A DNA stretch of 64,000 bases from Marinomonas pontica (GTDB taxonomy: Bacteria > Pseudomonadota > Gammaproteobacteria > Pseudomonadales > Marinomonadaceae). The stretch spans positions 62,001 through 126,000 of the forward strand of contig NZ_JAODTL010000041.1 in NCBI RefSeq assembly GCF_026191375.1, in the 5' to 3' direction. This document shows positions 2,111 through 57,349 of this stretch, in pieces. The notes beneath the pieces were generated by a model that saw nothing but the letters and a program-made list of their open reading frames with translations, had not been told where the DNA came from and ran no database searches. The translations under genes and the position numbers were made by a program. Numbering within the stretch: position 1 is the stretch's first letter; every line of letters begins with the position of its first letter.

Positions 2111-4192
2111 ATGACTCAGTCTGACAACCACCGCCATTGTTTGCTTTTAACAGGCTCGCCAAATGAGGTGCTGTCAGACTTCCGTCAGCTCTGCGAACAT
2201 TTTTCCTCTGTATTGATTTCGGCTCATGATGTGGGCCAATACGATGAGTTACTTGCTTCACCTTCCTCACTCCCCCCTTAAAACGTGTTCTTTTAAACAC
2301 GCTCGACAAGAGCTTGGCAGCAGTCACGATGCCATTTTAGTGGATTTATCTCAGGGTGTTTCAGCCAGTGCATTGGCCATATTGGCAGGTACCGTTCGAG
2401 GTAATGGAGTATTTGCGATTGCACTGCCCAATGAAGATTGGCTCTCAATGACCGATCAGGACTTAGCGAGATATTTGCCTTGGCCTTACGAACCTGCACA
2501 AGTCACTTCAGCGTTTAAGCGCTATCTGCTAGATCAACTTCAAAGCGAGGCATCGCCTTTTCGCTCTGTACCCGATCAGGTTACCGCGCTACCAGCATTG
2601 TCTCCAGTAAACGCCAATGCGCCACTGACCAAAGAGCAAACTGACGCCCAAGCCGATTTGTTTGCAGAACAAGCCAAATCCTATGTGCTTATCGCTCCAC
2701 GTGGACGCGGTAAATCCACCTTGCTTGGCGATTCAATCGCAAAGCTGATTCAAGCAGGAAAGCGCGTTGCTGTTTGCGCACCAAATCAAGAAGCGATTGT
2801 TAGCCTAAAAGCACGCTTTGATCAGCAGATGAATCAAAACCACATAAGCCTGCCTTTTTTTGCGCCTGACGCATTAATAAGCGATTCCTCTTATTGGGAT
2901 TTTTTGTTTGTAGACGAAGCGTCGATGATTCCATTGCCGTTGCTCATGACATTGAACAACAAAGCCGAACATGCTCTTTTTAGCACCACGGACTACGGCT
3001 ACGAAGGCGCCGGGAAGGGCTTTGGCATTCGTTTTTGCCATCATTTAGCTTCGCAAAAAACACCCCATAAACACGCCTTAAAAACACTCACACTGAACCA
3101 ACCGATTCGATGGGGGGAAATGACCCACTTGAGAATTGGATCAACAACTGCTTCTTTTTGGCCCCACCAGAGAACAACGCCAACACCATCAAGGATGTCG
3201 ATAAAGCGACCATCGAATATTCAAAACTGACAGGCGAGCAATGGCTCACCCGCTCGCCATTGCTCGCCGATACCTTCCAATTACTGGTAAGCGCGCATTA
3301 TCAAACCTCCCCAGATAACTTGCGTTGGGTTTTGGACGACCCTTCAGTATCAACACATGTATTGCATCGCGCCGGACAAGTACAAAGTGTTGCCATAATG
3401 ACAAAAGAAGGCAATTTACCAAACACACTAAGCCAAGAAGTGATGCAGGGAAAACGCCGACCAAGGGGGCACTTGGTGCCGCAGTCCTTACTGGCCCATG
3501 AAGGAATAGAAAACGCGGGACAGTTCACTTACTGGCGCATCAGTCGTATTGCCACCGACCCAAGTCTGCAAAATCAAGGCTTAGCGTCTCAATTGCTGGC
3601 GCAAATAAACAGCGCAGCACAGCAAAATTGCGACTTCTTGTGCAGTAGTTTTGCGGCGACCATCGATGTGGTGTCTTTTTGGTTAAAAAATGGCTATGTT
3701 CCCATCAGAATGGGCACCGCCAAAGATCACGCCAGCGGCGGCTATTCGCTGATGGTGGTAAAACCCATATCAGACTCAGCACGCCACTTAACCAGCAAAT
3801 GGCAAGCCACCTTCATTGAGCAATTTACCCTCAATCTACTGCTGCAATATTCTGATTTACCCACGGAATTGATTCTGCTTATGTTGGGACAATGCTCGCC
3901 AGCGCAAGGTAAACTCCCCACTCTGGCGCAATTATCAGCAAAAGACTTACAGGATATTGCGTTGTTTGTAGAGCATCACCGTCCTTTTGACAGTATCCGT
4001 GCTGTTTTCCTCAAAGCAACGCTATCGCTTGCCCTACAAGGTCAATTAGACTCCCAAAAAGCCACTCATAGACTGTTATTAGAAGCCGCATTAGGCAGAA
4101 ACACCGAACATTCTCGCCAAGACGCCAAGTTAGCGGGCAAAAAAGCCATGCATCAAAGTTTCAAAGCCATCTTATCGACACTCCTTCTTTAA
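2111..4192 (+). CDS. tmcA: tRNA(Met) cytidine acetyltransferase TmcA, interrupted by two compensating frameshifts
   Basis: TmcA makes N4-acetylcytidine at the wobble position of elongator tRNA-Met, using ATP and acetyl-CoA. The ATG at 2111 follows AAGGAA. In order the protein shows an N-terminal DUF1726 region, a helicase-like core with Walker A (PRGRGKST, near residue 195) and a DEAS Walker B (near 267), a GNAT domain (RIATDPSLQNQGLASQLL, near 480-500) and a C-terminal tRNA-binding region. The frame is lost at C6 (2272-2277, one base too many) and regained at G6A3 (3112-3120, one base too few). Corrected, it is 693 residues, the normal family length, with motifs intact. Two opposite homopolymer shifts suggest base-calling error rather than a dead gene. 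Confidence 0.88.
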
Positions 4193-8888: not shown

Positions 8889-10247
8889 TTACTGCTTATA
8901 AAGGTCTTTATCCAAATCATACTTACGCATTTTGTCGTAAAGCGTCTTACGCGGTAAGCCAAGCGCGTCCATGGTGTCTTTAATAGACCCTTTTTGACGC
9001 AACAACTCCTGCTCTAACAGCGTTTTCTCAAAGCGCTCCATTTGCTCAGGCAATGTCATGACCCCTGGGTTATTTTCATTGATAATGATTTGATCAAATT
9101 CAAAAGACCCCGCTTCCCCCATTAGGACATAACGTTCCGCAAGGTTTCGCAGCTCACGCACATTGCCCGGCCAGTCGTAGCTCAATAAACTGTGCATTCG
9201 CGCCGCAGACAATGGTTCAGATTCACGCTTGTACTGAGCAATAGCCACCAAACAAAAGTGCTGCCACAGCAATGAGATATCGTCTTTTCTCTCTCGCAAT
9301 GGTGGAATATCCACACGTACAACGTTAAGCCGATAATACAAATCTTCGCGGAAAGTACCGCCTTCACTTAGCTGTTTCAGATCAACTTTGGTCGCGGCCA
9401 AAATCCGTAAATCCAAGTCGATGGCCGTGTTAGACCCCAAACGCTCCAAGCGTCGCTCTTCTAACACTCGCAATAAACGAATTTGCATCGACATGGGCAT
9501 GCTTTCTATTTCATCTAAAAATAGCGTGCCACCGTTCGCGTGTTCGAGCTTACCGATCCGTTGCGTTTTAGCATCGGTAAACGCGCCTTTTTCATGACCA
9601 AACAGCTCAGATTCCATGATCGAATCAGGCACCGCGCCGCAGTTAATCGCCACAAAAGCATGACCACGCCGGGAACTGTGTTCGTGAATATAACGGGCCA
9701 CCAGCTCTTTACCGGTTCCCGTTTCACCTTGAATCAGAATATCTGCAGCGGTGTCCGCCACATGCAACAAAGCCTGACGTAAACGATGAATACCCGGTGT
9801 GTTGCCAATGATACGAGGCCCCGGAGCGTTTTGCGCAGCCAACTCTAGACGTAAATTGCGGTTTTCAAGGGTTAAGCGGCGTTTCTCTGAGGCTCGACGA
9901 ACCACCTCTATAAAGTCTTCATTCGAGAACGGCTTTTCAATAAAGTCATACGCGCCGTCACGAATCGCACTCACCGCCATGCTAATGTCACCGTGCCCCG
10001 TGATCAGAATGAACGGAATTTCTGCATCAATTTTTTTGACGTCTTCAAACAGCTCTAAACCACTTTTGCCGGGTAAGTTAATATCGCTCACAATCACCCC
10101 AGACCAATCCAGTGACAATTGCTCAATCACACCTTGAGCGGTTGCAAACTCAGTCACATCAAAATCTTCAAGTTGCAATGTCTGAGAAATCGCGATGCGA
10201 ACCGCTTGTTCATCATCGATCAATAAAACTTGCTTGCTGTCCGGCAT
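8889..10247 (-). CDS. dctD: Sigma-54-dependent response regulator DctD
   Basis: NtrC-family activator of 452 residues: receiver domain 1-120 with acidic pair D11-D12 and phospho-acceptor D55 (VSDINLPGKSG), AAA+ domain about 140-375 with Walker A (GETGTGKE) and sigma-54 contact loop, and a Fis-type helix-turn-helix at the C-terminus (DTMDALGLPRKTLYDKM). The contact loop reads GAFTDA rather than GAFTGA. Its ATG overlaps the dctB stop (TAATG), so the pair is translationally coupled. By family and by proximity to dctPQM it probably activates dicarboxylate uptake when phosphorylated by DctB (inference). Confidence 0.9.
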   Translation of the reverse strand: MPDSKQVLLIDDEQAVRIAISQTLQLEDFDVTEFATAQGVIEQLSLDWSGVIVSDINLPGKSGLELFEDVKKIDAEIPFILITGHGDISMAVSAIRDGAYDFIEKPFSNEDFIEVVRRASEKRRLTLENRNLRLELAAQNAPGPRIIGNTPGIHRLRQALLHVADTAADILIQGETGTGKELVARYIHEHSSRRGHAFVAINCGAVPDSIMESELFGHEKGAFTDAKTQRIGKLEHANGGTLFLDEIESMPMSMQIRLLRVLEERRLERLGSNTAIDLDLRILAATKVDLKQLSEGGTFREDLYYRLNVVRVDIPPLRERKDDISLLWQHFCLVAIAQYKRESEPLSAARMHSLLSYDWPGNVRELRNLAERYVLMGEAGSFEFDQIIINENNPGVMTLPEQMERFEKTLLEQELLRQKGSIKDTMDALGLPRKTLYDKMRKYDLDKDLYKQ

Positions 10248-12531
10248 TAAGATTCCTCTTTGGCAATAATGCTTTGCGGGCTAAATCGGGGTAGCCTAAC
10301 ACAAAATTCTGCACCCCCAGAGTCTCGATTTTGCGCACTGATCTGTCCGCCCATCGCTTCAACGATACGCTGACTAATAGACAAGCCCAATCCCAATCCT
10401 AAACCAGAAGATTTGGAGGTAAAAAAAGGTTCAAATAAATGTTTGGTGGCTTCTTCGCTCAAACCATTACCCGTATCTTGGACACTGATAATAATTTGCG
10501 CGTCCGTTGCTTTTTGCTCTATTAAGACCCGACGCTCGTTCGTGGCGTCTTCCGCTATCGCATCCGCCGCATTGGCCAACAAATTCACCAACACCTGTTC
10601 CAAAAAGACCATGTCACCATTCACAATAAAGCCCAAATCCTCCCCGACTATGAGCTCAATATTGGCCTCTTTATAGCGTGGGCTCATAATCTTTAGAGCA
10701 CCCACAATGGCCGTCTGCACTGCAATTGGCCCCTGCTGCACATCCCCTTTTCGAGCAAATACCTTGAAGCGAGCAATAATATCACCCATGTGGTGACCAA
10801 GCTGGCTAATGTGTTGCAGATTCGCATGGGCTTGCTCATATTGCCCACGGTCTAAAAATTTCAATCCATTTCCGGCAAACGCTCGGATCGCCGTTAAAGG
10901 TTGGTTTAACTCATGATTCAGCCCCGCACTAAGCTGCCCTAACACAGCCAATTTAGCAGTTTGTATGAGCTCGCGCTGCGTGCCTTTGTGCTCTTCAATT
11001 TCTTGGCGTAATCGCGTGTTGGCACCTTGCAGCTCAACGGTACGTTCTTTGACTCGCTCTTCTAGATCAATACGCGCTTGGGTGATGTCTTGTTCGTAAC
11101 GTTTCCGCTCAGTCATGTCATGAAAGGTCACCAAATAACTGCGTCGATTAGGCAGCTGCATCTCACACAAGGTCATTTCTACCGGTACTGATTGATTTGA
11201 ATAACACAAATGCCCCTCACGAGTGAGAACCTTAATGCCTAAATCACTTGCGGCGTCCAAAAAATCATCCTGAGAAGTTGTGATAACTGAACTTTGTTCA
11301 TCGGGTTGAAACAAGGTATCCAATGTCTGTCCCACCAGTGGTGCCAGTGGTTGCCCCACCAGCTTTTCAACCGCCGGATTAAAGGATTCTATTTTGTGAT
11401 GCTCATCCAATGTCACCAAGCCCGCTTGTGTGTTTTGAATCACTTCGCGAATGTAGGCTTGATTGTGTCGCGTCATTTCATTGGCATCAGAACGCTCTCG
11501 TAGCATTCGGCTTCGTAACATAGCCAAGCCAAAAAGCAACGCTGTGATGGTCACACCGCCAGCAAAAATAGCGCGCCATAGGGAAATCTCTTCATTAATG
11601 GTTTTTAGTGGCGCCAATATCGAAATTTTGAAATCCAATAAACGAATCGGGCGACTCATACGCAAAAATGACATTCGCTGTAACTCTTCGGTGCCATTAG
11701 TCATGGTGTTTTCTAACACGTCGATGATCTGAGATTTTTCATCAAACGGTTTTTGATAGACGATCGCCAGCTTTTCAATGGATTGTCCAAAATAGCGTTG
11801 TGAATCGGCAATGCGTTGCAATTCCAAATGAGACAATTCTCCTAGCACGCGATACAGCCAATTCGGGCGAGAACTGCTGAACACAATGCCATCGGGATCA
11901 AGTAATAAAAATTCATAATGCTGATTCGCAAAGCGTTTTTCAAACTGTGTCAGATCCACTTTTACAACGGCCACACCAATAATGGAATCGCCTTCATAAA
12001 CAGGATAGGAAAATAATACCCGCGCCGATTCGACGTGGTGCCCAGCGCATAATAACGCCCCGGCTTGCCCCGAATGGCGTCTTTAAAATAGGGGCGAAAG
12101 GCGAAATTACGGCCGACAAAACTGGCCTCTTCACGGTAATTAGACGCCGCAATGGTCAACCCTTCCATATTTAAAATGTAGCTGTCTGAGGCTTCAGTAA
12201 TGCGGTTGATTTGCTCAAGCTCGCGATTCAACTGATTAATATCCGATTCAAAGCCATCGCGCAGTGCTTTTCTGACCCGATCGTTGGACGCCAATAACGT
12301 CGGCATGTGCTGATATTTGGCAATGGCGCTTTCTAACACGCTGGCAAGCTGGTTTAACTGCTCAAAGGAATCAATGCGTAACGCTTTAATTTGCTGGTTT
12401 CGTAACGCTTCTCCGCCCTTCCAAATAGACAGCGACGTGATGATAAACACCACCACATACAGCCAAAACACATGTTTTTTAATGCGGTTTATATCGAAAA
12501 ATTTGACGTTCAAACGGCCACGCTCACTCAA
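10247..12531 (-). CDS. dctB: C4-dicarboxylate sensor histidine kinase DctB, one-base frameshift
   Basis: Membrane sensor kinase, 761 residues when corrected. Order: membrane segment about 20-40, periplasmic dCache-like domain to about 315, second membrane segment about 318-338, PAS domain about 350-470, coiled coil, HisKA with phospho-acceptor His near 540 (LNHELNQPLTAIRAF), and HATPase with N box NLLANAADAI and DTGNGL. The frame breaks at the A4 run 12010-12013 on the plus strand. One more base joins YYF to SYPVYEGDSIIGVAVVK and restores the dCache domain. It is longer than typical DctB (about 600) because of the PAS domain. It is the partner of the adjacent dctD. Confidence 0.85.
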
Positions 12532-12657: not shown

Positions 12658-15175
12658 ATGCATTCCATCAGTATACATTGTCAATCGATTGATGATCTCA
12701 TTCAAAAACTGGAAGGAATACAGCCGCCCGACCTTATCCAACTATACGGCACCTTTTCGATTAAAGAAGCCAAACCATGGGCAATATATTTAACACAGTG
12801 CTTTCCAGACGCGTGCCGTATTGGTATGGCAAGCCAGCGACACATCTCAAACGGCCAAGTCAAAAATGATGGCGCCACGCTGATTTTATCCTATTTCAAA
12901 CGCAGTCACCTGACTTATAACACTGTCCCTTACGACGACCAAAAAATTGAACGATCAGGTCAGCAGTTGTTCGCGCCTTTTCTTGCCAGTGATGAAAAAA
13001 ACCAAGCCAGTGCTTACATTGTACTGGCCGATACCAAAGACGCCATTCAAGATGACTTTTTCCGCGTCTCCCAAGAAAACGACTTAACCATCAGTGGTGG
13101 ACGAGCAGGCCTATTCGAACCAGGCAATAGCTGGGTGCTGTGCCAAGAAAACTTATACCAAAATCAATCTGTTGCTGTGGGCATCATTGGTGAATATTTA
13201 ACGCAGCAGCGCGATGTCTTTGTCGACAATATCGCCATAGGTCGTCGAATGTTGGTCACCGCCAGCGAAGGCAAAGTCATTAAACAAATCGACCATTTGC
13301 CTGCTCAGCAAATTTATCAACGCTATTTGTCCAATGGCGAACGCATCAGTCTGACACTTGCCAACCGATTCGCACTGACAACCGTACACAATAACGTAGA
13401 AATAAACGCGGTTCCGCTCAGCTGGGAAGGCGACGGCGGCATCTTAATGAGCGAAGCCATACCAGAGGGCGCATACGTTAAATTTCTCTATTTTCACCCC
13501 GCTCAGTCGCTCTACTCTATCGTTCCTAAGATTCAGCACCTCAATGAACAACTGCCTGAAAGCATTTTTGTGTTCAATTGCATCAGCCGCGAAGACTTTC
13601 TGGAAGAAAAACCAACCGATAAACTCAGCATGCTTAATCAAGTGCTGCCATTGCATGGAACCTACTGTTTTGGAGAGTTCTTTTCGACTCAATTTGGCAC
13701 AAGAATCATGCAACATGCGCTCACTTATTTGGCAGTTCATGAATCTGGCTGCGGCCTAAAACGAGAAGCGGAGCCGATCCAGCTTCCGGATGAACGCGAC
13801 TCTTTAGCCCCCATGTTCAACCTAATTGGTAATGCATTCCAAGAACTGGAACAAGAACACGCTTCTTTTGGCTACTCCTGCGCTAACCCAGACACCAACA
13901 ACGATTGGCTACACGATCTCGCAAACCGGGTTACTGAATCGTTTTTCATTACTGGGGCGCTTGACCAATCATCAAGACATCGCCCACCTTGTGGTTATGC
14001 GCATTCGTAATTTCTGATTAATCAATCAACAATATGGCTACAACGCCGCAGACGATTTGTTTGCCCAATTAGCCCATTATTTAAAACGTCGTCTGGGCAC
14101 CAACTCTGTGGGCATTGAATTTACCTGTTATCGCCTGTCAGCCAACGAAATCGCCGTGTCGATTCACAGTCAGATTGCACCGAATAAAATTCTTCGATTG
14201 TTTCGCAATTTAGCCGAAGACATCGAAAACGAAGAATTCTCCACCATGAAAAAAGTGGAGCATTTGCTCACACTAAGCTTGTCTGTTGGTATGGCGTCGG
14301 TGCTTGATCAAAATGGTCGTGCGCTTTGCGATCAATCGCATTTGCTGATCAAAGCCAGCGAAGCAAGACGCTATGCGCAAATGAATAATCAACCCATTTA
14401 TTGGAATGGCGACCTGCCTGATAATGCCTCCACCGAAGAAAATTTGGATTGGATTTTAAAGATTCGTAAAGCGCTAGAAAACGATGACATTTTCGCCTAC
14501 TTCCAACCTTACTATGACAGCAAAACAGGAGAAGAAATCGGCGCAGAAGCGCTGCTCAGAGCACGCATCGATGGGCAAATCGTCAGTCCAGCGTTCTTTT
14601 TAGACTTGATAAAACAAACGCAATTGTACTCAAAAATTACTCTAACCATGCTCGCAAAGTGCGAACGTATTCTTAACACTTATCCTAAGGTAAACGTCGC
14701 CTTAAACTTATCTGTATTGGACTTTAAACATTACGCCACGTTAAAAGCCCTGCGCCAGTTTTTTGCACGCAACAAGGTAAATGGGCGTTTGACACTGGAA
14801 ATCACCGAATCCGAATCCATCCAAGACTACGATTGGATCAGCCCAATTATTAATGAATTCAGAGAAGCTGGTGCGCTATTGGCCATAGACGATTTTGGGG
14901 CAGGCTATTCTAACTTAGAAAAACTCATCGCATTGAACCCAGACATTCTCAAGCTGGATGGCTGCATTATCAAAACCATTGATAAAGACGAAAAACTGCA
15001 AAAGTTAGTACAACATACCAACAACCTTGCGCATTCTCTGGGAATAAAAACCCAAGCCGAATTTGTACACAACGACGCCGTCAAACAACACTTAATAGAC
15101 TTGAAAATAGATTACTTACAAGGGTATCACTTATCCGAACCACTCAGCGAAACCGAGTGGCTTGAACGTCATTAA
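12658..15175 (+). pseudogene. FIST-GGDEF-EAL sensor/c-di-GMP phosphodiesterase, frameshift plus in-frame stop
   Basis: About 838 residues if repaired. The first 370 residues match FIST_N plus FIST_C, a predicted small-ligand (amino-acid) sensor module. Then come a GGDEF domain with a degenerate signature (SANEI where GGDEF is expected) and an EAL domain with AEALLR, NLSV, EITES and DDFGAGYSNL, which should be a working c-di-GMP phosphodiesterase. Two lesions lie at the start of the GGDEF domain: one extra base in AAA 13923-13925 (without it the text reads DLATGLLNR, matching the usual DPLTGLLNR) and a TGA at 14015-14017 in the corrected frame, between IRNF and LINQQYG. The stop makes true inactivation, or expression as two proteins, more plausible here than at the other broken genes. 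Confidence 0.72.
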
Positions 15176-20480: not shown

Positions 20481-21517
20481 ATGAACACAATTTTGCAGAT
20501 ATTTGACGTGATCCCTATTCATACTAAGAACAATTTAAGCTGGTCGCAACACCTGTCGCAGGCCATCACCTCGTTACCCGAACTGGTTGAGCATTTAGGC
20601 TTGCCAAAAAGTCTCGCTCAACAAGGCGCAGAAGCGCATCAGAGCTTCAAATTGTTGGTGCCGCGCCCTTATTTGTCTCGCATTGAATATGGCAATCCAA
20701 ACGATCCGCTGCTGTTGCAAGTTTTACCCAGCCTCTCAGAAATGCAAAAAGTCGTGGGCTACACAAAGGATCCGCTAGAAGAAGCTGACCACAATCCGCA
20801 AAAAGCCATCGTACATAAATACAAACGCCGTTTATTGGTGATCACCACAGGCACTTGCGCGGTAAATTGTCGCTATTGCTTCCGTCGTCATTTTCCTTAT
20901 GGCGAAAATCAACTGGCGCAAGCCGAGTGGGAATCGGTAATCGACTATCTAAAAGCCCACCCAGACGTCAACGAAGTGATCTTGAGCGGTGGCGACCCTT
21001 TGATGATGAAAGACAGCTTGCTCGCCGATAAGCTCCATAAACTGGAGGCCTTGCCGCAAATTAAACGCCTACGCATTCATTCACGTTTGCCTGTGGTGAT
21101 TCCAGATCGCGTTTGCGACGACATGCTAACGTGGATCACAGCCAGTCGCCTCGACATCGTCATGGTGTGGCACATTAATCATGCCAATGAAGTGGACGCA
21201 AATCTGGCTCAAGCGGCTGACAAACTAAAAAAGCGGGCGTCACCTTGCTTAACCAAGGGGTACTATTGAAAGGCGTTAACGACTCGGTAGAAGCCCAAGT
21301 CAACTTGAGCGAGGCCGTTTTCGATGCCGGCATTTTGCCGTACTACATGTTCACTTTAGATCCGGTAGACGGCGCGGCGCATTTTGATATTTCTATCGAA
21401 GATGCTCAACGCTTGATGGGAAAAGTGGCTGCGGAATTACCAGGGTATTTAGTGCCAAGGCTAGCCAAGGAAATCCCTGGCAAGCCTGCGAAAAGTGTCT
21501 TCGCTCCGACTTTTTAG
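20481..21517 (+). CDS. epmB: EF-P beta-lysylation protein EpmB (lysine 2,3-aminomutase family), one-base frameshift
   Basis: Radical-SAM, PLP-dependent enzyme that converts (S)-alpha-lysine to (R)-beta-lysine for EF-P. The iron-sulfur cysteines are C126, C130 and C133 (CAVNCRYC), followed by FRRHFPY and the SGGDPLM motif. The frame is lost at the A6 run 21227-21232. One more A turns KKRASP into KKAGVTLLNQGVLLKGVNDS and yields 345 residues, the normal length, ending in AKSVFAPTF. Start ATG at 20481. It acts with EpmA and EF-P in this same region. Confidence 0.9.
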
Positions 21518-21558
21518 AACGAATAAACTTTAGTAAGAATGTACTTTATTCACTGTCT

Positions 21559-42023: not shown

Positions 42024-42913
42024 ATGAAAAACTGGGAAGCCATGGAAGCGTTTGTCGAAGTCGTCCGACAAGGCCGCTTTTCTGCCGCCGCTGTTAAACT
42101 CAACGTCTCTGCCTCTCACATCAGTCGTTTAATTACTCAGCTGGAAGCAGAACTGGGCACCACCTTGCTGTTCCGCACCACAAGACGCATTCGCTTAAGT
42201 GAGGCAGGCGAGCTGTATTACCAGCATTGCCGTGGTTTGCCAGAGGCGCTAAGCAGTGCTGAAGAAGTGATTTCATCGCTAAATCAAGCCCCCATTGGCC
42301 CCTTTAAAATGACCTGTGCCACCACGTTTGGTGAACGCTACATTGCGCCTTTGATGAACGATTTTTTGTTGGGTCACCCAAAGATCGAACTGGACTTTCA
42401 TCTCACTAACCGTGCAGTCGACTTGATCGAAGAAGGCTACGATCTTGCCATTCGCATGGGCGCCATGAAGGATTCCAGCCATTTGTCACGCCGCCTGTGC
42501 GATCGAGTGGAATACCTTTGTGCGTCTCGGGAATACATCGACCAACACGGCATGCCGCATACGTTGGCGGAACTCAACAAACACAGCTGCTTAATCGGCT
42601 CAAAAATCATTGGCTGTTTCAACAAGACGGACAACGCAAAGAAATGAAAGTAAGCAGCAACTGGCGCAGCAATTCTGGCCCTGCTTTACTGGATGCCGTG
42701 CGAAAAGGTTTGGGGATCGCTCAGTTGCCAGATTATTACGTGGCCGACGACCTAGCCAGCGGAAAACTCATCCCTTTACTGACTCATTACCAATATCCAT
42801 ACAGTGGCGTTTGGCTGGTGTACCCAAAAGTTCGTCAGCCTTCACCTAAGTTACAAAATATATGCGATTACTTGATCCAACGTTTTAAGCAAGATCCGCC
42901 TTTTGCCAAATGA
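42024..42913 (+). CDS. LysR family regulator beside formaldehyde genes, one-base frameshift
   Basis: 296 residues when corrected: winged helix-turn-helix in the first 60 (AFVEVVRQGRFSAAAVKLNVSA then SHISRLITQLEAELG) and a substrate-binding domain from about 90. The frame breaks at A5 (42602-42606). One more A changes the text to SKNHWLFQQDGQRKEMKVSSN and continues to the normal end at 42913. Divergent from adhC-fghA, so it is the probable regulator of that pair (inference from arrangement). AAGGGGG lies before the ATG. Confidence 0.87.
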
Positions 42914-50109: not shown

Positions 50110-51080
50110 ATGCAGCTAGCGATAATTCTATTGCTCATTGCCACTCTTAGTGTGTGCTCGATGTATTACATCTACACTTACCGAGGAAACATTCGCTATA
50201 CCAGCTGGTCAGAATATTTCCGCAAAGGTTGGCCTATTTTTGCCCCATTAAACTGCTTGTTGTATTTGTTTTCGTGCAAAAAGTCCGTCGTCCTATTATC
50301 GATACATTGCAATACAAAGAACTGGACGTATTGCGTGACAACTGGGAAATTATTCGTGACGAAGCCCTTGCTCTTCAACAACAAGGCGACTTAGAAAACA
50401 TAAATAAGCCCGGCTCAGATGCCTATTACGACGTTGGGTTTAGAACCTTTCACAAATACGGATGGCGTAAATTTTACGTGAAGTGGTATGGCTACACTCA
50501 CACATCGGCGCAAACCATGTGTCCGAAAACCACTGAAATTTTAAGCAAAATCAAGAACATAAACGGAGCAATGTTTGCATTTATGCCTGCTAATTCCGAA
50601 CTAACACGCCACCTTGATCCTGTTGCCTGTTCACTGCGTTATCATCTGGGACTCGAAACACCGAACTCAGACGATTGCTTCATCAATATTGATGGCGAAC
50701 AATACGCTTGGCGCGATGGCAAAGACCTTCTGTTTGATGAAACCTATCTGCATTTTGTTAAAAACAACACAGACCAAAGTCGTTTGATTTTGATGTGCGA
50801 TTTTGATCGCCCAGTTAATCCACTCGGTAAAATCATTAATTTTTGTTACAAAATACTGATGCGCGCGTCCATCGTGCCGAACACCAGTGACGACAAAAGT
50901 GGCCTCGCGAATAAAATATTCAAAACAGTCACACCGCTGCTAGAGCAAAGCAAAGTCCTAAAGCAAACCAACCGTAAAGCCTATAAACGCCTAAAATACA
51001 CAGTCAATAGCCTATTACTGCTGGCCATTGCAGGCATCATTGTGGGTGTCGTGCAGTTAATTTCTTGGTTATTCTTTTAA
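50110..51080 (+). CDS. lpxO: LpxO-like lipid A aspartyl/asparaginyl beta-hydroxylase, one-base frameshift
   Basis: Fe(II)/2-oxoglutarate dioxygenase that 2-hydroxylates an acyl chain of lipid A. 323 residues when corrected: an N-terminal membrane anchor (about 3-20), then the shared LpxO text DNWEIIRDEALALQ and KWYGYTHTSAQTMCPKT. The iron ligands lie in TRHLDPVACSLRYHLGL and FDETYLHFV, and a second hydrophobic anchor sits at the C-terminus. The frame breaks at A5 (50278-50282); one more A links NCLLYLFSCKK to VRRPIIDTLQY. The ATG at 50110 with GGGAAT upstream is preferred over one five codons earlier. Confidence 0.88.
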
Positions 51081-51251: not shown

Positions 51252-53086
51252 ATGAAACCTGCCGCTTCACCAAATAATACTGTCGATAAAAACATGCTTG
51301 GCGTGTTTCGTTATAGCCGTCGCGCCATTGATTTGGTGTGGAAAACCTCCCCAGCGTTAACCATCGGCTTGGCGATGGCGACTCTAGTTGCCGGTGTCAC
51401 GCCAGCCGCCATGGCGTATGTGGGACAATTGATCGTAGATGCCGTCGTGGCAGCTATGGAAAGCTACAAACAAGACCAAGTCTTGCATTACCAAGCCGCT
51501 CTCAGCTACGTGTTATTGGAAGGCATCTTGGTTTTAGTCATTGCTGCCGCACAACGCGCTTTAACCGCTCAGCAGGCCATTTTACAAGGATTATTAGGCC
51601 AAAAAGTCAACTTGCTGATCTTAGAGAAAGCCCAAAGCCTAACACTCTCGCATTTTGAAGATTCAGAGTTTTACGACAAATTAGTTCGTGCTCGCCGTGA
51701 GGCCTCCAGCCGCCCGCTTGCTCTGGTGAATAAAACCTTTGCCCTGCTACAAAATGCCATTACGTTATCCAGTTTTGCGGTCTTGCTGTGGCACTTTTCG
51801 CCGTGGGCGTTGGCATTATTGATTTGTGGCGCTTTGCCTTCTTTTATCGCCGAGGCCAAATTTTCTGGTGATGCTTTTTTAATGTTTCGTTGGCGCTCCC
51901 CGAAGTGCGCCAGCAAAACTATTTAGAAACGCTACTGGCGCGAGAAGACAACATCAAAGAAGTTCGTCTGTACCAACTGGGCGACCGTTTTTTGCAACGC
52001 TACACCGAAATATTCATCAAGCTATTCAGAGAAAGTAAGCGACTGATTTTGCGCCGTGAAAGCTGGGGCTTCGCCCTTGGCGTGATAAGTACCTTAGTGT
52101 TTTATGGCGCCTATGGTTGGATCGTCAGCGACACCATTATTGGCGCGATTACTTTGGGACAAATGACTATGTATTTGCTGTTATTCAAGCAAGGTCAAAG
52201 CTCGGTTTCCGCATCACTCACTTCCATTAGTGGCATGTACGAAGACAATTTATATCTATCTAATCTTTACGAATATTTAGAACAAGAAACGCCGCTTTCG
52301 ACTTCTGGCCTTTCAAAAGGCACTATTCCAAACGATGGCATTCGTTTTGAAAACGTCTCTTTCCAATATCCAGGTAACGAACGCCCGGCACTTGCCAACA
52401 TCAACCTGCACATTCGCCCTGGTCACAGCCTTGCGATTGTTGGAGAAAATGGCTCTGGCAAAACCACACTGATCAAACTACTAACGCGACTGTATAACCC
52501 AACCCAAGGGCGAATCTTGCTAGACGGCTTGGATTTGCTGGAATGGGAAGAAAGCGCATTACTAAAACGTGTTGGCGTGATATTCCAAGACTTTGTTCGC
52601 TATCAATTTATTGTTGGCGAAAACATCGGCGCTGGCGATAACGACAGATTTAACGATCAAACCGGTTGGAAAAAAGCAGCCGAGCTTGGCAAGGCCACCG
52701 ACTTTATTGATGAGCTGGAACAAGGTTACCAAACCCAACTTGGCCGCTGGTTCCGTGGCGGACAAGAATTGTCTGGTGGGCAATGGCAAAAAATCGCCTT
52801 GGCCCGCGCTTTCATGCGCGAAGACGCCGATATTTTGGTGTTAGACGAACCGACAGCAGCCATGGACGCCCAAGCCGAAGCCAATATTTTCCAGCATTTC
52901 CAAGAGCATACTAAAGATAAAATGGCGATTCTGATTTCTCACCGTTTTTCTACCGTACGACTCGCATACGAAATTATCGTCATGGAACATGGGCAAATTA
53001 AAGAACGCGGCACCCACGATTCACTATTAGCACAACAAGGCCAATACGCGCATTTATTTACCTTGCAGGCGCAAGGCTATCGCTAA
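51252..53086 (+). CDS. ABC transporter, fused permease-ATPase, one-base frameshift
   Basis: Half-transporter of 611 residues when corrected: six-helix membrane domain about 1-320 and ATPase about 350-590 with Walker A GENGSGKTT, signature LSGGQWQKIALARA, Walker B ILVLDEPTAAMD and H-loop ISHRFSTVR. It presumably works as a homodimeric exporter of lipids, peptides or drugs; substrate unknown. The frame breaks at C4 (51898-51901). One more C gives RSPEVRQQNYLETLL in place of RSPKCASKTI. Starts at ATG 51252. Confidence 0.87.
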
Positions 53087-56331: not shown

Positions 56332-57349
56332 TTGCTGAAGCAAAACAACAAAAACTTCACCACCATTTCCGACGTTGCAAAATACGCCAAAGTGGGTAAG
56401 ACCAGTGTTTCACGTTACCTCAATGGGGAACAAGATAAATTATCCGGAAGAGCTACGAGAAAAAATCGCGCAAGCCATCGCTCATCTGGATTTTCGTCCT
56501 AACCATTCAGCTCGGATGCTCAGAGCGGGACATTCTAAGCTAATTGGACTGTTACTGGCTGATATTACCAACCCTTACTCCATCGAAGTGTTGCAAGGTA
56601 TCGAGCATGTTTGCCGCCAAGAAGGCTACATGCTAATGGTCTGTAACACAGACAACCAAGACGAATTACAAGACCGTTATTTGTCTCTTCTAGAGGCTCA
56701 TCGAGTCGATGGCATCATAGTTAACACAGCGGGCATGGCACAAAAACAAGTCAGTAATTTGAAACGCCTGCCTTGCCCCTTAGTACTGGTTGATAGAATC
56801 AATACCTCGTTAGGATTCGACGCCATTGGGCTCGACAACGAAGCCGCTGTAAACGAGGCCTGCGAACACTTACTCACTGAGGCTTACGACGCCATTTTAG
56901 TGGTGACCGAATCCATTACCATTGATCCGCGCAAAGCAAGGGTCGATGCTATTCGCGCTTTCACCAAAGCACACGACAACATGCCCTGCGATGTCATTGA
57001 AATCGAAAAATTGAGCCATAGCGTTCTTATCAATTCCATCGAACATTTTATAAGCACTCACCCAAAACGCAAAAAAGCCATCTTCACCACCAACGGGGTC
57101 GCCATGATGAGCACTGCAAAAGCTTTGAAACAGCTAGATATTCGTATCGGCACGCAAATTGGTCTCATCAGCATAGACGACCCAGAATGGGCACAACTGT
57201 TCGAAGGCGGCATCACCGTAATGCGCCAGCCAACACAACTCATCGGTCAAACCGCTTGCGAGCGATTGCTTGCTAGAGTCCAAGGTAACAACGAAGCCGC
57301 ACAACACATCAAGCTCAAAGCCGAACTCGTTATTCGACACTCTCTTTAA
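56332..57349 (+). CDS. LacI family regulator beside KDG kinase, one-base frameshift
   Basis: 338 residues when corrected: the LacI helix-turn-helix reads FTTISDVAKYAKVGKTSVSRYLNG at the start and the periplasmic-binding-protein-like ligand domain follows from about 60 to the end. The frame is lost just after YLNG. Removing one base from G4 (56425-56428) gives YLNGNKINYPEELREKI; the next ten bases are alternative sites. The start is uncertain: TTG at 56332 is the first usable codon after an in-frame stop and no strong ribosome site is seen. It probably controls the KDG kinase gene through the dyad at 57406-57423 (inference). Confidence 0.82.

Follow-up and report, generated by a model that had tools for sequence, protein, structure and literature searches.

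The window analysed here, a 64,000-nucleotide stretch of the Marinomonas pontica genome, raises a question at positions 12658–15175 of its forward strand: is a gene that joins a FIST sensor to an enzyme of c-di-GMP turnover really broken in this organism, or is it broken only in the printed sequence? The FIST part, a degenerate GGDEF domain and an EAL domain follow one another at this locus, but they do not all lie in a single reading frame as printed, whereas in nine relatives they do. The original prediction offered two readings of this arrangement, namely a real inactivation or a split gene in which the EAL part has a start of its own.

The locus and its domains

The sensor part (12658–14010, forward strand) is an open reading frame of 450 residues with an ATG start. 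Pfam matched it to both FIST (1.2e-14) and FIST_C (1.2e-13), which identifies it as a FIST_N plus FIST_C module, and it shares 47–80% identity with seven relatives, the homology extending only to about 13917. A sequence search of solved structures with this part, at E up to 1, returned no match. The continuation that is homologous to the relatives lies in the +1 frame, where it meets a TGA at 14015–14017 and is thereafter open to 15175, including the EAL domain; apart from the TGA, there is no stop in the reading frame of approximately 2.5 kb. The first ATG, GTG or TTG past the TGA is a TTG (14057–14059, forward strand), and the open reading frame counted from it (14057–15175) has 372 residues. 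The coordinates of the reading frames and the in-frame TGA, both given in the original prediction, agree with the list of open reading frames, and its identification of the first start codon past the TGA was also correct. Furthermore, the combination of domains that it proposed has been borne out by Pfam, by the orthologues and by alignment.

The middle domain lies on the forward strand in the +1 frame, with approximate bounds of 13922 and 14462. Pfam at E up to 0.001 found no GGDEF domain in either of the M. pontica open reading frames, and the domain was placed from a protein alignment and from four orthologues, in which it was detected by weak matches (E 8.2e-11 to 2.1e-6), all of them over the cut-off. 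The alignment took in six of the nine relatives, and all seven rows that cover the signature position (M. pontica and the six relatives) read SANEI there; the motif is also readable in three further relatives. The GG(D/E)EF signature of an active diguanylate cyclase is therefore missing and, given SANEI, it is very unlikely that this GGDEF-like domain makes c-di-GMP.

The EAL phosphodiesterase domain, together with the stop codon, spans 14462–15175 on the forward strand (Pfam EAL, 1.5e-54). Its nearest solved counterpart by sequence is the EAL domain of MucR (5m1t; E 3.1e-26), with which the main motifs align; those retained are EALLR, NLS, EITES, DDFGAGYS, KLDG, AE and LQG. The ExxE motif is different, however, in that MucR has AEGVE, whereas M. 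pontica and the six aligned relatives have AEFVH, the second Glu being replaced by His. The assignment of catalytic roles among the EAL motifs follows general knowledge of these domains.

Position of the frame change and the stop codon

Nucleotide alignments, repeated with four relatives, placed the frame change at 13918–13921 (forward strand), where M. pontica has one extra base compared with all seven aligned relatives. An earlier suspicion that the sequence shifts frame here was thus justified, but the site proposed for the shift, a homopolymer at 13923–13925, was not the right one: this AAA run has the same length in M. pontica and in 7/7 aligned relatives. The TGA (14015–14017, forward strand) lies about 95 bases from the extra base and occupies a position that encodes Arg in eight of the nine relatives and Ser in the remaining one (L067). 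Because the nine relatives read through both sites in one frame, the two frames of M. pontica are halves of one ancestral gene and, judged by sequence comparison, the agreement of both frames with the single-frame relatives exceeds chance.

Distribution among relatives

The genome to which the window belongs is assembled as 3.55 Mb in 62 contigs, and our searches covered 34 Marinomonas genomes and 21 genomes of other genera. The FIST part was found in 7 of the 34 genomes of the genus, each time in one open frame of 837–902 codons, and a search with the EAL part (E up to 1e-60) led back to these seven genomes, with hits in the frames already identified; the two parts were never found apart across these 34 genomes. 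No match to either part was obtained in the other 27 Marinomonas genomes, or in the 21 genomes of other genera. Two further records, from M. pollencensis (L067, 849 codons) and M. profundimaris (L068, 855 codons), also have an open frame, which brings to nine the Marinomonas relatives with FIST, GGDEF-like and EAL domains in a single open frame.

In one genome of the genus, G027, a transposase gene (L010, 1632–2579, reverse strand) follows about codon 37 of the FIST gene. It matched HTH_38 and, below its cut-off, rve, and we take it to be IS30-like. Despite the interrupted start, the G027 frame is open over the equivalents of both 13918–13921 and the TGA. The gene is dispensable within the genus, as the 27 genomes that lack it and the transposase gene in G027 demonstrate, and for the same reasons a real loss in M. 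pontica would be plausible.

A wider search covered 369 genomes of the class, that of M. pontica included. Among the matches listed, one besides the M. pontica gene aligned from FIST to EAL (G412, 25% identity), although the search is no gauge of the rarity of the architecture, since it was dominated by ordinary GGDEF-EAL proteins, at most two candidates were scored per genome and the matches were listed in part. G412 is a distant gammaproteobacterium represented by one contig, and its FIST-GGDEF-EAL gene (L100, 1462–3999, reverse strand) has one in-frame TAA within FIST_C, past which the reading frame goes on.

One-base indels in the assembly

A census of broken genes bears directly on the extra base. 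Conserved genes of the contig that carries the window (C41) were compared with the syntenic stretches of six relatives, and broken gene places were flagged at 8 of 61 in M. pontica, as against 7 of 361 in the relatives. If frame changes alone are counted, the figures are 8/61 and 3/361 (Fisher p 1.4e-5), and exclusion of the FIST gene leaves 7/60 for M. pontica (p 7.3e-5). All eight of its flagged places localize to one-base indels, while the seven flags in the six relatives consist of three frame changes (two of one base, one of ten bases) and four in-frame stops. The immediate neighbour of the FIST gene is among the eight: a PAS-HisKA-HATPase kinase (10247–12531, reverse strand), whose reading frame is divided by the deletion of one base near 12010. 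Its N-terminal open reading frame has a Cache match below the cut-off, and the kinase is presumably dctB-like. The other one-base indels, judged against the relatives, fall in conserved genes of the forward strand at 2111–4186, 20481–21523 and 42024–42910 and, with the support of one or two relatives only, at 50110–51071, 51252–53083 and 56335–57343.

A second census, with three relatives, covered two stretches that were picked around rpoB and ftsZ and are thus not random. Here, M. pontica was flagged at 7/59 places and the relatives at 8/236 (4/84, 1/70 and 3/82; p 0.015), most of the latter flags looking non-genic and all being counted without localization. Five of the seven M. pontica flags were localized, every one to a one-base indel; the other two, by appearance opposite-strand or non-genic reading frames, are not part of the overall sum. 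This sum, with the FIST gene included, is 13 localized one-base indels in 120 conserved gene places (eight deletions and five insertions), or about one per 9 kb compared (63.8 + 51.9 kb). The census sees frame changes and stops and is blind to insertions, and the interrupted FIST gene of G027 accordingly went unflagged.

Among the genes cut in this way is rpoC, which has an inserted base at C4:19811 (L069, G000:C4). A profile search for rpoC found stretches on contig C4 only, with profile positions 1–301 in a different frame from those from 299 onward, and revealed no second copy in the assembly; in G030 and G025, rpoC is a single frame of 1416 codons. As rpoC is indispensable, and no second copy was found, this indel can only be an error; the remaining localized indels are probably errors too. 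Both rpoB and ftsZ are intact in the M. pontica assembly. Since the extra base in the FIST gene fits an assembly-wide pattern of one-base indels that does not spare rpoC, an assembly error is the most likely cause of the frame change, and we hold this conclusion with considerable confidence.

The TGA is a different kind of lesion, and the only one among those localized that is not an indel. It too is probably an error, perhaps arising from a locally poor stretch, the alternative being a real nonsense mutation. Against an error, the mode of error demonstrated in this assembly is the one-base indel and not the creation of a stop by substitution. A search for pairs of indels that compensate each other returned, in M. 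pontica, no genes beyond those whose shift had been established before (one patch appeared in the control, G030, as well); because patches under seven codons escape this search, it is no test of the TGA itself. Overall, the apparent split is probably explained by an erroneous extra base at 13918–13921 together with a probably wrong call that creates the TGA, and the living organism would then have one intact gene of about 840 residues, in the order FIST_N, FIST_C, degenerate GGDEF and EAL. That the whole gene is intact in the organism seems to us reasonably likely. As for the two readings originally offered, inactivation and a split gene, neither accounts for the frame change as readily as an assembly error does; inactivation survives in the form of a possible nonsense mutation at the TGA.

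Alternative explanations

The gene could be a real but very recent pseudogene, in which the TGA is genuine, with or without the frame change, and the enzyme has been inactivated. We consider this unlikely, though to be taken seriously: the singularity of the TGA among the localized lesions and the evident tolerance of loss within the genus both favour it. However, the nearby frame change matches the indel pattern seen across the assembly, the long reading frame contains no additional stop, and both halves are conserved to the same degree as the copies of the relatives. Between M. pontica and seven relatives, dN is 0.075–0.120 for the EAL part and 0.121–0.265 for the FIST part; among the relatives, in the pairs listed, the corresponding ranges are 0.077–0.149 and 0.103–0.301 (L009 and L067 lie outside this table). 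Within these pairs, protein divergence does not point to relaxed selection in either half. A long-standing pseudogene was rejected on the same values, neither half being more diverged than the relatives' copies, whereas a very recent loss would be invisible because dS is near saturation. For this reason dN/dS was mostly not computable, and the M. pontica gene gave a value in one pair only (0.031, EAL part).

Far less probable is a functional split into a FIST protein and a second protein, with half of the GGDEF domain and the EAL domain, translated from a restart at the TTG at 14057 or beyond. Such a split would agree with the openness and conservation of both halves, and with the closeness of the two lesions to each other at the border between FIST and GGDEF. 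When ribosome-binding energies were calculated for 13 in-frame starts, none stood out as convincing. The TTG at 14057, near which the EAL part had been suggested to start separately, shows no Shine-Dalgarno pairing (+0.3 kcal/mol, against a background median of -2.1 over 208 internal start-like codons), and this suggestion is now weak. A TTG at 14264 pairs with the anti-Shine-Dalgarno sequence at -5.2 kcal/mol, which is stronger than the ATG at 12658 (-4.0), but this codon is within the GGDEF domain, and the 10% and 25% quantiles of the background (-5.6 and -3.3) bracket the energies of both starts. As the gene's own ATG does not exceed the background, the energies constitute a weak test. More telling against a split is that, across the 34 genomes of the genus, FIST and EAL parts were found only together, sharing one frame in each of the seven genomes that have them.

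In a related version, the printed sequence would be right, and a recent division of the gene would have released the FIST sensor and the EAL enzyme as separate proteins that still cooperate. We give this very little credence; if true, it would be a case of a fusion reverting to a two-protein system, of the kind that NosP (see below) represents. Finally, recoding, in which a programmed frameshift and read-through of the stop together yield the full protein, is extremely improbable and was dismissed, because its sole support is the conservation of both frames, while the shift occurs in 0/7 aligned relatives and the stop in 0/9, two events within 100 bases would be required in one species, and single-base shifts are found elsewhere in the assembly, even in rpoC.

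Function and relation to known systems

To our knowledge, few FIST-pseudoGGDEF-EAL enzymes have been studied. A close known system is CdpA of Vibrio cholerae, in which we assume that a degenerate GGDEF domain lies between FIST-FIST_C and EAL. According to the cited sections of PMC8846402, CdpA carries a FIST-FIST_C sensor on an EAL phosphodiesterase and is inhibited by heme; it shares with the Marinomonas gene, to which it is likened by architecture and not by sequence, the joining of FIST-FIST_C to an EAL phosphodiesterase. The same sections describe FIST-FIST_C proteins with GGDEF, EAL or HD-GYP domains, from which, as presented there, the Marinomonas gene differs in its SANEI signature, conserved in the relatives seen. 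NosP, in the cited parts of PMC8846402 and PMC12570481, is a stand-alone FIST sensor of NO and heme that acts on a kinase. Thus, as far as these accounts extend, NosP and the Marinomonas gene both place a FIST sensor upstream of c-di-GMP control; however, NosP is a separate protein beside its kinase, whereas the Marinomonas gene fuses sensor and enzyme.

By analogy with CdpA and NosP, the FIST module of the intact gene may bind a small ligand, either heme or NO on heme. The GGDEF-like domain, with no synthesis of c-di-GMP expected of it, might serve as a relay or as a dimer scaffold, and the EAL domain would cleave c-di-GMP under the control of the sensor, with both its activity and the direction of control being predictions. 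It is probable, on this analogy, that the FIST part senses heme or NO and sets the activity of the EAL domain. Our best reading of the gene is that it encodes an ordinary FIST-pseudoGGDEF-EAL phosphodiesterase of the CdpA type, whose enzymatic activity is predicted.

In summary, what looked like a tempting case of a split signalling gene most likely reflects the quality of the assembly, for which the break in rpoC provides a useful yardstick. Broken genes in this 64,000-nucleotide window should be treated with care, and should not be taken as biology without sequencing reads. For Marinomonas itself, the gene would represent one more FIST-pseudoGGDEF-EAL enzyme, with an architecture that is already known.
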